From the NCBI RefSeq assembly GCF_900114715.1, contig NZ_FOTY01000001.1, forward strand, positions 131,286 to 195,285: a DNA stretch of 64,000 nucleotides, written 5' to 3'. Made by a program: the position numbers and the translations under genes. The notes beneath the pieces were generated by a model. The model was not told where the DNA came from. It did no database searches and saw nothing but the letters and a program-made list of their open reading frames with translations. Origin of the DNA: Salibacterium qingdaonense (GTDB lineage: Bacteria; Bacillota; Bacilli; Bacillales; Marinococcaceae). Each line of letters begins with the position of its first letter. Within the stretch, counting starts at the first letter, position 1. Positions 48,630 to 55,705 of this stretch are shown piece after piece.

Positions 48630-50129
48630 TTGATCAAATCAAAAACTTATGAAATATGGTTTGTCACAGGAAGCCAGCATTTATACGGCCCGGAGACGCT
48701 TGATGCAGTGAAGGCTGACTCGGAAGATATCGTCGAGGGCCTGAAAAAAGATGAAACCATTACGACACCAATACGTTTCAAACAGGTGGTCACTACCTCC
48801 GATGAAATTTTGACACTCATGCGGCAGGCTAACAGCGATGACAGCTGCGCCGGCATCATTACGTGGATGCATACGTTTTCCCCGGCAAAGATCTGGATTG
48901 CAGGTTTGAAAGCACTGCAAAAGCCGCTTTTGCACCTTCACACGCAGTATAATGCCGAGATTCCGTGGAATGAGATTGATATGGATTTCATGAATCTCCA
49001 CCAGTCTGCCCACGGTGACCGTGAATTCGGCTTTATGACCGCACGTCTGGATATTCCGAGGAAAGTCATCGCCGGCCACTGGCAGCAGCCTCATGTAAAA
49101 AAGCGTATCGGGCGCTGGGCGAAAGCAGCGGTGACAGCATCTGAAGGCCGTAATATCAAGGTGGCGCGTTTTGGAGATAATATGCGAAACGTTGCCGTAA
49201 CAGAGGGAGATAAAGTCGAAGCGGAAGCTGTGTTCGGCTGGATCGTGCAGGCTCACGGTATTGGAGATTTAGTCGATTATATGAATCACGTGAAAGAAGA
49301 ACATGTGGAAGCTATCCTGACCGACTACAAAGAGCGGTACCATATTCCGGAGGATATCCTGAATAATCAGGAAAAGTGGGATGCGGTACGGGAACAAGCC
49401 CGCATTGAAGCCGGCATAGAAACGTTTCTTGATGACGGCGGCTACACGGCGTTTACGACGAACTTTGAAGATCTGCACGGCATGAAACAGCTTCCGGGAC
49501 TTGCCGTACAGCGCCTGATGGAGAAAGGATACGGATTTGGAGGAGAAGGAGACTGGAAAACAGCTGCACTCGTCCGTGCCATGAAGGTAATGGCAGAAGG
49601 AAAGGAAACCACCTTTATGGAAGACTATACGTATCATTTGGAAGAAGGGAGAGAACGGATTTTAGGGTCTCATATGCTGGAAGTCTGCCCGACCATTCAG
49701 GAGTCGGGGAGCAAACCGGAAATTCAGGTTCACCCGCTCTCTATGGGGGACAGGGAAGATCCTTCCCGCCTCGTCTTTGACAGTCGTGCCGGGCACGCGG
49801 TCAATGCATGCATCATTGACCTTGGGGATCGGTTCCGCCTCGTTCTAAACGAGGTCGAAGCAGAAGAAATCAACGAAAATATGCCGCACTTACCGGTAGC
49901 CCGGGTGCTCTGGGAACCGAAGCCGAACCTGCAGGATGCAGCCGAATCCTGGATTCTTGCCGGAGGGGCCCATCACACCTGTCTATCCTACGAATTGACA
50001 AGTGAAGACCTGCAGGACTGGGCGGAAATAAACGGGATAGAATGCATCGTCATTGATGAGACGTCCAAACCAAGAGAGATTCAAAAGGAAATCCGTCAGA
50101 ATGAATTCTACTGGAGCAGCAAAAAGTAA
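48630..50129 (+). CDS. araA: L-arabinose isomerase, copy 1
   Basis: 499 residues, TTG start. N-terminus IWFVTGSQHLYGPETL; the catalytic and Mn-binding Glu/His residues lie in TFMEDYTYHLEEGRERILGSHMLEVCP and AGGAHHTCLSY. Converts L-arabinose to L-ribulose. Last gene of the arabinan operon, followed by a strong terminator. A second, very similar copy starts at 51793. Confidence 0.95.
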   Translation: MIKSKTYEIWFVTGSQHLYGPETLDAVKADSEDIVEGLKKDETITTPIRFKQVVTTSDEILTLMRQANSDDSCAGIITWMHTFSPAKIWIAGLKALQKPLLHLHTQYNAEIPWNEIDMDFMNLHQSAHGDREFGFMTARLDIPRKVIAGHWQQPHVKKRIGRWAKAAVTASEGRNIKVARFGDNMRNVAVTEGDKVEAEAVFGWIVQAHGIGDLVDYMNHVKEEHVEAILTDYKERYHIPEDILNNQEKWDAVREQARIEAGIETFLDDGGYTAFTTNFEDLHGMKQLPGLAVQRLMEKGYGFGGEGDWKTAALVRAMKVMAEGKETTFMEDYTYHLEEGRERILGSHMLEVCPTIQESGSKPEIQVHPLSMGDREDPSRLVFDSRAGHAVNACIIDLGDRFRLVLNEVEAEEINENMPHLPVARVLWEPKPNLQDAAESWILAGGAHHTCLSYELTSEDLQDWAEINGIECIVIDETSKPREIQKEIRQNEFYWSSKK

Positions 50130-51722: not shown

Positions 51723-51751
51723 TTAACAAGTAACGGTATAGATGATATTAT
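51723..51751 (+). promoter_or_regulatory. Promoter of araA copy 2
   Basis: TTAACA and TATTAT separated by 17 bases. The AraR operator starts at the last base of the -10 box, so bound AraR would block this promoter. Confidence 0.65.
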
Positions 51752-51766
51752 CTTATACGTACAAGT
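51751..51766. promoter_or_regulatory. AraR operator of araA copy 2
   Basis: TCTTATACGTACAAGT, sharing its last 14 bases with the operator of the arabinan operon at 42056. It covers the expected transcription start. Confidence 0.82.
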
Positions 51767-51792
51767 TATTAGGTGAGAGGAGACAAAGACGA

Positions 51793-53286
51793 ATGATAAA
51801 AGCAAAACAGAATGAAATTTGGTTTATCACCGGAAGTCAGCACCTATACGGTCCGGAAACCCTTGAAGCAGTGAAAGCACACTCAGAAGATATCGTAGAG
51901 GGACTGCAGAAAGGGGAGGCAATCACAACGCCAATCCGCTTTAAGCAGGTGGTGACCACCTCTGATGAAATCCTGACACTCATCCGTCAGGCAAACAGCG
52001 ATGACAGCTGCGCCGGCATTATTACATGGATGCATACATTTTCGCCGGCAAAAATCTGGATCGCAGGCTTAAAAGCACTGCAGAAGCCGCTTTTGCACCT
52101 TCACACGCAGTACAATGCCGAAATTCCGTGGAATGAAATTGATATGGATTTCATGAACCTCAACCAGGCCGCCCACGGTGACCGTGAGTTCGGCTTCATG
52201 ACAGCGCGTCTGGATATCCCGCGGAAAGTTGTTGCCGGCCACTGGCAGCAGCCTCACGTGCAAAAGCGGATCGGGCGCTGGGCAAAAGCGGCGGTTACAG
52301 CTTCTGAAGGCCGCAATATCAAGGTGGCTCGTTTTGGGGACAATATGCGCAACGTTGCCGTAACAGAAGGTGACAAAGTAGAAGCTGAAGCTGTATTCGG
52401 CTGGATTGTGCAGGCTCATGGCATTGGCGATCTGGTGGAGTACGTAAACAAGGTGGCCGATGAGGAAATTGATCAAATTGTAAGGGAATATGAACAATCC
52501 TATACAATACCGGAAGAGACGAGAAATAATGAAGAGACATGGCAGGCTGTACGCGAACAGGCCCGTATTGAAGCCGGCATGGAAGCATTTCTTGAGGACG
52601 GCGGCTACACGGCGTTTACGACGAACTTTGAGGACCTGCACGGTATGAAACAGCTTCCGGGACTTGCCGTACAGCGCCTGATGGAGAAAGGATACGGCTT
52701 CGGCGCGGAAGGAGACTGGAAAACTGCAGCGCTCGTGCGTGCCATGAAAATGATGACAAACGGCAGCAATACAGCGTTTATGGAAGATTACACTTACCAT
52801 CTACAGGACGGAAAAGAACGAATTCTGGGGTCGCATATGCTTGAAGTATGTCCGAGCATTAAAAAAGAAGACGAAAAACCGGAAATTCAGGTTCACCCAT
52901 TACCGATGGGAGGAAAAGAAGACCCGGCACGGCTTGTATTTAACAGTAAAGCAGGCAGCGCGGTGAACGCATGTCTCATTGATCTGGGAGACCGTTTCCG
53001 CTTGATTCTGAATGAGGTGGAAGCAGTGGAAATAGAAGAAGACATGCCGCACCTCCCGGTAGCCGGAGTACTGTGGAGACCGGAGCCGAATCTGGAGGAT
53101 GCAGCCGAATCGTGGATTCTCGCCGGAGGCGCGCACCACACTTGTCTTTCCTATGACCTCACCAGTGAAGACCTGCAGGACTGGGCAGAGATAAACGGTA
53201 TTGAATGTATCATCATAGATGAAACATCCAAACCAAGAGAAATACAAAAAGAAATCCGCCAGAATGAAGCGTACTGGTCTAAATAG
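51793..53286 (+). CDS. araA: L-arabinose isomerase, copy 2
   Basis: 497 residues. ATG 51793 follows GAGAGGAGA; the upstream ATG at 51742 lies inside promoter and operator and is not a start. It has the same active-site segments as copy 1 (EDYTYHLQDGKERILGSHMLEVCP, GGAHHTCLSYDLTSED). Long blocks are identical at protein level, while residues around 212-245 differ strongly (VEYVNKVADEEIDQIVREYE against VDYMNHVKEEHVEAILTDYK). It stands as a single-gene unit with its own AraR-controlled promoter. Confidence 0.95.
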   Translation: MIKAKQNEIWFITGSQHLYGPETLEAVKAHSEDIVEGLQKGEAITTPIRFKQVVTTSDEILTLIRQANSDDSCAGIITWMHTFSPAKIWIAGLKALQKPLLHLHTQYNAEIPWNEIDMDFMNLNQAAHGDREFGFMTARLDIPRKVVAGHWQQPHVQKRIGRWAKAAVTASEGRNIKVARFGDNMRNVAVTEGDKVEAEAVFGWIVQAHGIGDLVEYVNKVADEEIDQIVREYEQSYTIPEETRNNEETWQAVREQARIEAGMEAFLEDGGYTAFTTNFEDLHGMKQLPGLAVQRLMEKGYGFGAEGDWKTAALVRAMKMMTNGSNTAFMEDYTYHLQDGKERILGSHMLEVCPSIKKEDEKPEIQVHPLPMGGKEDPARLVFNSKAGSAVNACLIDLGDRFRLILNEVEAVEIEEDMPHLPVAGVLWRPEPNLEDAAESWILAGGAHHTCLSYDLTSEDLQDWAEINGIECIIIDETSKPREIQKEIRQNEAYWSK

Positions 53287-53340
53287 AAAAAGTCATATGG
53301 TCTCTTCCAAAGAGGCTGGGACAAAACTTCTATAAGATAG

Positions 53341-53381
53341 AAAAATACCGAACGATTTTTTAAAAATCGTTCGGTATTTTT
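53341..53381. terminator. Perfect 20-bp inverted repeat, possible terminator of araA copy 2
   Basis: AAAAATACCGAACGATTTTT and AAAAATCGTTCGGTATTTTT are exact inverted copies around a single T. As RNA this forms a long stem ending in Us, so it can terminate transcription in both directions. It lies 54 bases after the araA stop, just inside the left end of the repeat element. Confidence 0.75.
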
Positions 53382-53672
53382 CGTTGCTGAGACAAACCGC
53401 TGCGCCAATATGTTTCGCTTTTACTGTAGAGCGCAAGGGAGGCATCGATCGCCGGGCTCATCGTGCCTTCTTCGCCCCGGGTACGGCCTGCCTCCGCCGT
53501 TCCTCCGGGTCAGCTGCTTGTCGAAACCGACGCACCACGGCTGTTCCAGGGCCCGTTTGCCGGAATCGAAGCCACACCTGCACTGCTCCGCGATGGGATC
53601 ACGGTGCCACTCGGTATAATTGTTTGTTTTGTACAGGTTGGGGGCGCGAACGTCGTTGGTAATGGGTTCTAA

Positions 53673-54153
53673 GGCACTTTAGGAGGTTCTGCGCTCCTGT
53701 AAACGTCGTTATACATGACTATTGAGACACTTTAGAGGGTTCGGTACCCTCGTAAACGTCATCAGGAAAGATTCCCAAGGCACTTTAGAAGGTTGCGGAC
53801 TCCCTAAAACGTCGTTGGACAAGATGCCTGAGGTACATTAGAAGGTTTCGTCCCCTGCCGTAAACGTTGTCATGAGCGAATCGAGGCTGCGTTCAGCGGG
53901 AAACTGAACGGGGCGATGCAGCAACGAGAGCCTGCCGCTGTGTGAAAACGGCGGAGAATAGTCCTTAAGGCACTTTAGGGTATCATGCAGCGTCTCAAAC
54001 GTCATCAGGCATGTCGTCGGAGACACTTTAGAGGGTCCGGTGCGCCCGTAAACGTCATCAGGAATGATCCCCAAGGCACTTTAGAAGGTTGCGGACTCCC
54101 TAAAACGTCGTTGGACAAGATGCCTGAGGTACATTAGAGGGTTTCGTGCGCCG
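53673..54153. repeat. Array of eight degenerate repeats with an exact 53-base period
   Basis: The box GRYACWTTAG starts at 53673, 53726, 53779, 53832, then 53969, 54022, 54075 and 54128: two groups of four with spacing of exactly 53. Bases 29-35 of most units read AAACGTC, which with the preceding bases is roughly the inverse of the first box (GACrYTTTAg). The 18 bases between vary but pair in several units, for example GAGGGT-TCGGT-ACCCTC in unit 2. Units 3 and 7 are identical, units 2 and 6 close, so the four-unit block was itself duplicated. The eighth unit is cut off. An 84-base stretch interrupts the two blocks. It is not a CRISPR array, since neither repeats nor spacers behave as such. 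Confidence 0.8.
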
Positions 54154-54319
54154 GCCCTGACCGCACATCCTGCGGCTTGGGCTGTCCTGAGCAGTAGTCG
54201 AAGCATTTTGACTTCGCTGCTATGAGACTCCTGAACAGCGACTCAAGACTTTCATGTTTCGTTATCTTTTGTCCCGGTCTCTTTTTTCATAAAGATGGAA
54301 TGTTGTTTGTGTTCAGTGA

Positions 54320-55705
54320 TTATTGATTACTGCCCAGGCTGATATTCATCGTATCAGCCATGATTTTCGGCAGATCCGTGTTATCCAGAAGGCCGCTGAA
54401 GGAATCGGATTGAGGACCATAAGCATAGACGGGAATATCTACACCGGTGTGTCCGGAGCTTGTCCAGCCTACGAGAGCCTTGTCACTTACAATGGTATTG
54501 ATGGCTGCGGCAGGATTATCCGCTTCCTGTACCGCTGTAATGTTTTCTTCTGTCCATTCAAAAGGGGTGTGATTTTCGACGACTTCCCGGACATTGGTGC
54601 GGTTCTCGTTTAATTGTGCTGCCATATAATCACCGGTTGCCTGCACCTCTTTCAGCTTATCGGCCTGTACATCATATTCTCCATTGGTTCCTACAGACAT
54701 TCCGCCTGTTTCATGGTCACCGGCCACAACGACAAGGGTGTTTCCTTCTTCTTCGGCAAAGGTGATGGCGTCTTCCACAGCGTGTTCGAAAGCCTCGGTA
54801 TCGCTCATGGCCCATCCGGCATCATTGGCATGACCGGCCCAGTCAATCTGACTACCTTCCACCATCAGGAAAAATCCATCCTGATCCCGGCTCAGTGTAT
54901 CAATGGCACTGCTTGTCATGTCGGAAAGACTTGGTTCTTCTGTGCTACTACGCTGCAGTTCAGGGCTCAGTGCACCATCTGCGAACAAACCGAGCAGCTT
55001 TTCCCCTTCATTGACATTCACGCTGTCGGTTTCCATCAGCTCACCGTTTGTCTCCACGTGCTGGTAACCAGCATCCTGAGCCTGCTGCAATAAATGCTCT
55101 TCCGACTGCATGCCGCCTTCAGATTCCGGCAGGAAATATTCTTTTCCACCTCCCAGCATGACATCGACGTCGTTATCAAGCATCTGTTTTGCGATTTCGG
55201 CTTGGTTGTCACGGGATTCCACGTGAGAAGCAAAGACTGCTGGTGTAGCATGGGTGATTCTGGACGTTGCGACTAGTCCGGAGGATTTCCCTTCCTCTTC
55301 CACAGCTTCCAGAATAGTTTCCACTTCATTTCCCTGCGCATCGAGGCCGACCATTCCATTGTTTGTTTTATGTCCTGTTGCCATGGCAGTCCCGGCAGCA
55401 GCGGAGTCCGTTACCCTGGAGTCGCTGGATCTTGTTTTAAACATGCCCTTCAGATGTTCATCCCAGACTGCATCTTCTCCTTTATACCACCGATAGTTTG
55501 CTGCATAATCTGCATTAAAGCCATCCGGTATCATATAAATGATGTTCTCTACTTCATCCTGCTGAGAAGATTCATTCCAGCCGGGATTCCACATCCCGGG
55601 AAACCCGAACTGGTTCGCTTCTGTCTGAGCCTCCGTCACGTTTTCGCCGCCTCCGGCCAAAACCAGACCGGCTCCCAATGTAACAGCACCCATCTTTTTG
55701 AACAT
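54320..55705 (-). CDS. Secreted alkaline phosphatase
   Basis: 461 residues. N-terminal signal peptide (about 1-28) without a lipobox Cys. The nucleophile Ser101 is in RVTDSAAAGTAMATGHKT; metal-binding segments include MIPDGFNADY, VEGSQIDWAGHANDAG, VVVAGDHETGG and SGHTGVDIPVYAYGP. It releases phosphate from phosphomonoesters outside the cell. The protein is very acidic, as in salt-adapted bacteria. A PhoP-box-like array lies just upstream, so phosphate starvation should induce it. It has no obvious tie to the surrounding sugar genes. Confidence 0.94.
   Translation of the reverse strand: MFKKMGAVTLGAGLVLAGGGENVTEAQTEANQFGFPGMWNPGWNESSQQDEVENIIYMIPDGFNADYAANYRWYKGEDAVWDEHLKGMFKTRSSDSRVTDSAAAGTAMATGHKTNNGMVGLDAQGNEVETILEAVEEEGKSSGLVATSRITHATPAVFASHVESRDNQAEIAKQMLDNDVDVMLGGGKEYFLPESEGGMQSEEHLLQQAQDAGYQHVETNGELMETDSVNVNEGEKLLGLFADGALSPELQRSSTEEPSLSDMTSSAIDTLSRDQDGFFLMVEGSQIDWAGHANDAGWAMSDTEAFEHAVEDAITFAEEEGNTLVVVAGDHETGGMSVGTNGEYDVQADKLKEVQATGDYMAAQLNENRTNVREVVENHTPFEWTEENITAVQEADNPAAAINTIVSDKALVGWTSSGHTGVDIPVYAYGPQSDSFSGLLDNTDLPKIMADTMNISLGSNQ

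Follow-up and report, generated by a model that had tools for sequence, protein, structure and literature searches.

A phased array in the window

What holds an array of short DNA boxes to an exact 53-nt period while the bases between them change? The question is raised by a locus in the window analysed here, i.e. the whole 64,000-nt stretch of the Salibacterium qingdaonense genome. Eight boxes of the form [CT]AC[AT]TTAG start at positions 53675, 53728, 53781 and 53834 and at 53971, 54024, 54077 and 54130, with box-to-box spacings of 53, 53 and 53 nt, then 137 nt, then again 53, 53 and 53 nt; in a pattern search of the 64-kb window the longer box G[AG][CT]AC[AT]TTAG was confined to the array. 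The strict period and the arrangement as two blocks of four, proposed earlier in a sequence-only reading, are confirmed by the box coordinates and by TRF, which picks up the array. Block 1 (53663-53876, plus strand) and block 2 (53959-54150, plus strand, its last unit truncated) are 89% identical across 151 nt at an offset of 296 nt, and unit 7 repeats unit 3 exactly from the box onward: the suspected duplication of a four-unit block is real.

A second box, AAACGTC, occurs in six units (1-3 and 5-7). In unit 4 its counterpart is AAACGTT, displaced by 2 nt, and unit 8 lacks the box because this unit runs into the right part of the surrounding element. The proposal that box 2 is a rough inverse of box 1 also holds, both boxes being versions of one half-site, GTTACGTTTA / TAAACGTAAC. 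Between the blocks lies a palindrome, GCTGCGTTCA / GATGCAGC (53886-53922, plus strand), which is a diverged extra unit and whose counterpart in native arrays reads GTTACGTTTA-N17-TAAACGYAAC. A repeat within a coding gene was rejected, as 53 is not a multiple of 3 and no long ORF crosses the array. Not visible to a reading confined to the window were the dispersed element around the array, the adjacent decayed piece of a tatD gene and the occurrence of the same geometry in other genera.

A dispersed element around the array

The window array is the interior of a single transposon-like element of about 970 bp with inverted ends GAGKCTGGGACAAAA. As delimited by these ends and by comparison of genome copies, it is a long-form element of 970 nt from left to right inverted end (53312-54281, plus strand). 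The left end, GAGGCTGGGACAAAA (53312-53326, plus strand), is the same 15-mer as the end of an IS1182-family insertion sequence (IS), save for T instead of G at position 4. Next comes a perfect 21-bp hairpin between runs of A and T (53340-53382, not assigned to a strand, arms matching at 100%), which resembles a bidirectional terminator and is found in most element copies, and a left module common to short and long elements (53383-53480, plus strand) that ends near a CGGCTC junction. This is followed by the decayed remnant of a tatD-family nuclease gene, a piece of its 3' end (53481-53618, plus strand; PF01026), which matches residues 233-278 of the intact TatD on contig C53 of the same genome (G000) with 63% identity (tblastn, E=1.4e-10). 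Beyond the array blocks lie a right module, also present in short elements (54151-54266, plus strand), and the right inverted end TTTTGTCCCGGTCTC (54267-54281, plus strand). The ORF list contains no transposase-like ORF within the window element.

Two convergent ORFs flank the element. The upstream one (51742-53286, plus strand), which reads into the element, we take from its sequence to encode L-arabinose isomerase, and the downstream one (54320-55705, minus strand) presumably encodes alkaline phosphatase, again judged from its sequence. The ORFs at 48630-50129 and 51742-53286 are arabinose-isomerase-like, closely similar and in tandem, with a sugar-transporter-like ORF on the opposite strand between them. 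At this locus, the hairpin near 53361 would end transcription of the convergent flanking genes, and the array would be a passenger site.

Element sequence is found at about 40 places in the genome. Short forms of approximately 250-350 bp consist of the left and right modules only, without the tatD fragment and array, and long forms of approximately 600-1100 bp additionally carry the tatD 3' fragment, together with between one and three array blocks. The left-hand gene reads into the element in 35 of 39 copies (binomial p=3e-7), often ending less than 50 nt away. Both ends, GAGTCTGGGACAAAA / TTTTGTCCCAGACTC, were recognised within 3 mismatches in 31 elements, and among these 31 copies no direct repeats of 2-8 nt exceeded shuffled expectation as target-site duplications; insertion of the IS1182 type at palindromes may leave none. 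The left module of two long elements (L061 and L066) contains a second tandem repeat of about 54 nt (CTCCAGAGCACAAGGGCGGCATCGATTCGCTGGCGCTC...), in one or two copies, located between the hairpin and the tatD fragment.

This architecture is of a known kind, that of MITE-like elements with internal repeats such as BrickBuilt (PMC4596501) or of the modular BOX elements (PMC3049150): the element has terminal inverted repeats and many intergenic copies, and lacks both a transposase and the target duplication expected of a MITE. BrickBuilt of Porphyromonas gingivalis is likewise intergenic, with short inverted ends, a leader and tail, and an internal minisatellite of direct repeats in variable copy number; however, its unit is 23 nt long without inverted half-site geometry, and no repeat-free leader-to-tail forms are known from it (PMC4596501), whereas array-less short forms are common in the S. 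qingdaonense genome. BOX of Streptococcus pneumoniae shares the modular boxA-boxBn-boxC design with variable central repeats and a terminal inverted repeat resembling that of an IS, but is unrelated in sequence and 67-637 bp long, and the description consulted reports no alternating inverted half-sites in fixed phase (PMC3049150).

Origin and mobility

An intact tatD gene (PF01026) is directly followed by an array at one place in the genome (G000:C53) and at the orthologous place in Salibacterium halotolerans (S7, G003:C32), while every other long copy contains only the decayed tatD 3' end; in two other congeners tatD is present as an orthologue, but no array accompanies it. Because further arrays lie near tatD without element ends (G000:C53:9887-10180 and its orthologue, and also G003:C32 near 32375), arrays existed as chromosomal sites, one of which was probably captured by a short element and then spread. 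The sequences suggest that the junction of the long elements coincides with the six-base match CGGCTC between a short element and tatD. The interiors differ at several insertion sites that are orthologous in the two species, which points to exchange among copies, and recombination between copies would swap interiors and alter unit number. A TatD-family nuclease gene also lies between two glutamate-dehydrogenase-like ORFs at another locus (L078, 3177-4082), where resemblance to QatD is weak and below cut-off.

A candidate for the mobilising enzyme is provided by an IS1182-family IS (NF033551, 433 bits) that interrupts an array element at the palindrome GTCAC/GTGAC. It has the same outer 15 nt as the element (GAGTCTGGGACAAAA), a hairpin beside the end and insertion at a palindrome without duplication. 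Unlike the element it has a transposase, and in contrast to the long elements it is without an array; the sequences diverge beyond GAGTCTGGGACAAAACC, i.e. there is no match past the outer 15 nt. The IS is single-copy, and of the four Salibacterium genomes it occurs in this one alone, being absent even from congeners carrying elements. This copy (L166, 149-1997; G000:C60) is intact, with hairpins within both ends. The shared ends suggest that an IS1182-type transposase moved the elements, presumably by acting on these common ends. The solitary copy, the different ends of most related IS1182s and the lack of target duplications speak against this. A general link between IS1182 and GGGACAAAA ends was not supported in the bacterial family, most Bacillaceae IS1182s having ends of the GGGGCTGTCCCA type or others, and the search for an autonomous transposon with the element ends CTGGGACAAAA, in which extra sites were also read, yielded only the one IS1182 IS. 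Phage or plasmid origin was rejected for want of any match.

The location of the element also recalls REP/BIME sequences and GTAG/CGTC-tagged REPs, which occupy intergenic positions close to the 3' ends of genes, where neighbours are convergent or in tandem, and whose inverted units can cluster (PMC3733652). Box 2 contains CGTC beside a palindrome, as do CGTC-tagged REPs, but the Salibacterium array has no GTAG, no RAYT and a strict phasing of 52-53 nt. The CGTC families occur mainly in alpha-Proteobacteria, with stems of 8-9 bp and rare clusters (PMC3733652). The tag is not kept elsewhere, being replaced by CGTA or CGAG in the arrays of two other genomes discussed below (G325 and G115). No RAYT (Y1 transposase, PF01797) was matched in the S. 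qingdaonense genome, in which search positive controls were detected, and a RAYT/REP origin was rejected for this reason.

Units and constraint on the boxes

A gapless 53-nt profile recovered 199 units (186 distinct) from elements of the two genomes, with scores of 17-80 against a best shuffled score of -27. All 126 neighbouring pairs detected within blocks are exactly 53 nt apart, a figure from which the few units with small indels that escape the profile, and rare exceptional spacings of 52 or 108, are excluded. Since scores are far above those of shuffles and the spacing is constant, the array is not a product of chance. A typical block contains three unit types, A-B-C, followed by a spacer of about 81 nt, the next block mostly starting after 133-136 nt; with its 4+4 blocks, the window array departs from this common form.

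The covariance-model search of family genomes called for by the earlier reading, carried out with a sequence-only model, gave 148 matches in S. qingdaonense (140 of them strong, in 29 arrays), 102 in S. halotolerans and none in 27 further family genomes, two congeners among them; unit copy numbers are lower bounds because assemblies break at these repeats. Units lie at contig ends in contigs C16, C23, C28 and C34 of the S. halotolerans assembly. The exact unit pattern, searched across genome contigs, was otherwise found only in S. halotolerans, apart from single chance-like matches in unrelated MAGs.

Conservation reaches about 95-99% at CAC.TTTA and AAACGTC, compared to 40-60% in the unit middle. 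When the units were joined in a minimum spanning tree, the 14 box-core positions accounted for 27 of 883 changes where 233 are expected, and between units differing by only 1-3 bases the figure is 5 of 127 (33.5 expected), for units that were collected by profile at a score threshold far below typical scores. At orthologous native arrays of the two species, boxes have changed at 7 of 114 sites and other positions at 52 of 204 (p=9e-6). Selection on the boxes as well as on the suggested spacing is thus supported, both by the constant distance between detected neighbours and by box cores that are poor in changes even among near-identical units, and likewise between orthologous arrays.

These data bear on two alternatives. 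The array could be a minisatellite evolving neutrally, its regularity maintained by gene conversion and by tandem amplification in the recent past, as the identity of units 3 and 7, the exchange of interiors at orthologous sites and the changes in unit number would suggest. However, changes are depleted specifically in the boxes, and the same geometry occurs with different sequence in unrelated genera, so that this explanation is already disfavoured and appears very improbable. Alternatively, the half-sites might bind an enzyme that moves or amplifies the element, their conservation reflecting selection for mobility. The element is indeed dispersed and mosaic, and presence among close relatives is sporadic in several genera. 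Yet boxes are conserved both among copies so similar that they are presumably recent and at orthologous native arrays that lack element ends, although drift would be expected of dead copies; moreover, the IS1182 IS itself has no array and the genome no RAYT. We regard such selfish sites as unlikely.

Secondary structure

Conserved structure over sequence, in the form of hairpins inside units, had been hinted at from the window. The hairpins named for single units can be seen there, but other units do not preserve them, and the structural claim itself is not supported: the intra-unit stem is paired at 80.3%, compared to 79.8% with shuffled partners, as in column-shuffled controls. Base-pair covariation, the check that had been suggested, gave no support for such a hairpin, which was rejected; units have no consensus fold, and their minimum free energy is no better than that of column-shuffled controls. 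An H-type pseudoknot (GGCAC/GTGCC) was also tested and showed no covariation. No significant match to the element was found in Rfam at gathering or relaxed thresholds, the only match in the window being a tRNA elsewhere.

Pairing between units behaves somewhat differently. The inter-unit palindrome (TTATGAA-TGA-TTCATAA type) pairs slightly more often than shuffled sequences do (0.777 vs 0.745 for B|C), and some compensatory changes on both sides (C-G/T-A exchanges) are seen in the spacer stem. Both also fit an RNA or cruciform structure and count against DNA binding. Taken together, the structure data are no less compatible with a DNA dyad than with RNA. The array might be read as RNA, its tandem hairpins behind the upstream gene serving for 3'-end protection, titration of a regulator or as a sponge. 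Besides this pairing, the position behind genes and the complementarity of the half-sites, which lets either strand fold, speak for such a role; against it stand the intra-unit results, the absence of any Rfam family, G-U counts without consistent strand preference and the terminator-like hairpin upstream of the array. An RNA function seems doubtful to us.

Half-site geometry beyond the genus

In less diverged arrays found via weak model matches (G000:C47, C37 and C18), the boxes read GTTACGTTTA and TAAACGTAAC/TAAACGTCA, and half-sites alternate at 25 and 28 nt between 5-mers, which sum to 53. Compared with these, box 1 (GGCAC-TTTAG) reads as a half-site minus one base. One such locus (L204, G000:C47:54860-55700) is a 220-bp higher-order repeat in four copies, made of full GTTACGTTTA half-sites.

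A pattern describing geometry only, CGTTT N19-20 AAACG N22-24 CGTTT, was applied to 397 genomes from the order, reversed patterns serving as controls. S. halotolerans had 83 matches, S. qingdaonense 41 and two genomes of other genera 45 (G325) and 31 (G115), with 0 in all controls; a further genome (G311) had 8. Background was about 0-3, and close relatives of the outlier genomes had none or one. The pattern fixes only three half-sites and narrow gap ranges, and imposes neither the long chains nor the constant period of 52-53 nt that were found: up to 18 half-sites at 24, 28, 24, 28 nt in G325, up to 15 in G115, and shorter chains in G182, G101, G237 and G201. In a class-wide sample of Bacilli, a genome of another order (G633) had two sites 156 nt (3x52) apart. 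The period in the unrelated genera is 52 nt and the filler sequence is different; the arrays are mostly intergenic, without a common neighbour gene. Alternating CGTTT/AAACG arrays of 52 nt are seen at L238-L240 (G325), L241-L243 (G115), L245 (G201) and in G633. Those of G325 seem bounded by inverted motifs of their own (GATGTTCA...TGAACAT), possibly another MITE-like carrier.

Literature on 52/53-bp repeats and interspersed arrays in Bacillales was searched and the repeat was not found described there; nor were the half-site geometry, its constraint or its recurrence across Bacilli.

A putative binding array and its significance

Our preferred reading, tentative and with not quite an even chance of being right, is that of a transposon-like element, non-autonomous and dispersed through intergenic regions, that encloses an array of putative binding sites acting at the DNA level. 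A putative DNA-binding protein would recognise inverted pairs of the half-site (G)TTACGTTTA / TAAACGTAA(C), and several dimers could load side by side to constrain or bridge DNA, in a manner comparable to the recruitment of nucleoid factors by BIMEs. Because two spacings add up to five helical turns, successive pairs would lie on one face of the helix. Against this reading, the blocks are separated by 133-137 nt, which does not place them a whole number of turns from the rest, and the half-site sequence varies by lineage (ACGTTT, TCGTTT).

We further conjecture, with more reserve, that AAACG/CGTTT arrays with a rhythm of 24-25 and 28 nt (52-53 bp, five turns) may represent a new, sporadic class of putative protein-binding arrays in the chromosomes of Bacilli, tied to no particular mobile element and read by an undescribed DNA-organising or defence-related protein.

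That one half-site geometry should return in unrelated genera amid changing sequence strongly indicates a conserved binding partner, and the array could be used as bait for its putative binding protein. The element also shows how mobile DNA can acquire an array of chromosomal sites along with the end of the adjoining tatD gene, and spread the array behind dozens of genes. If the binder were a nucleoid or chromosome-organising factor, such arrays would be a Bacilli counterpart of BIMEs.
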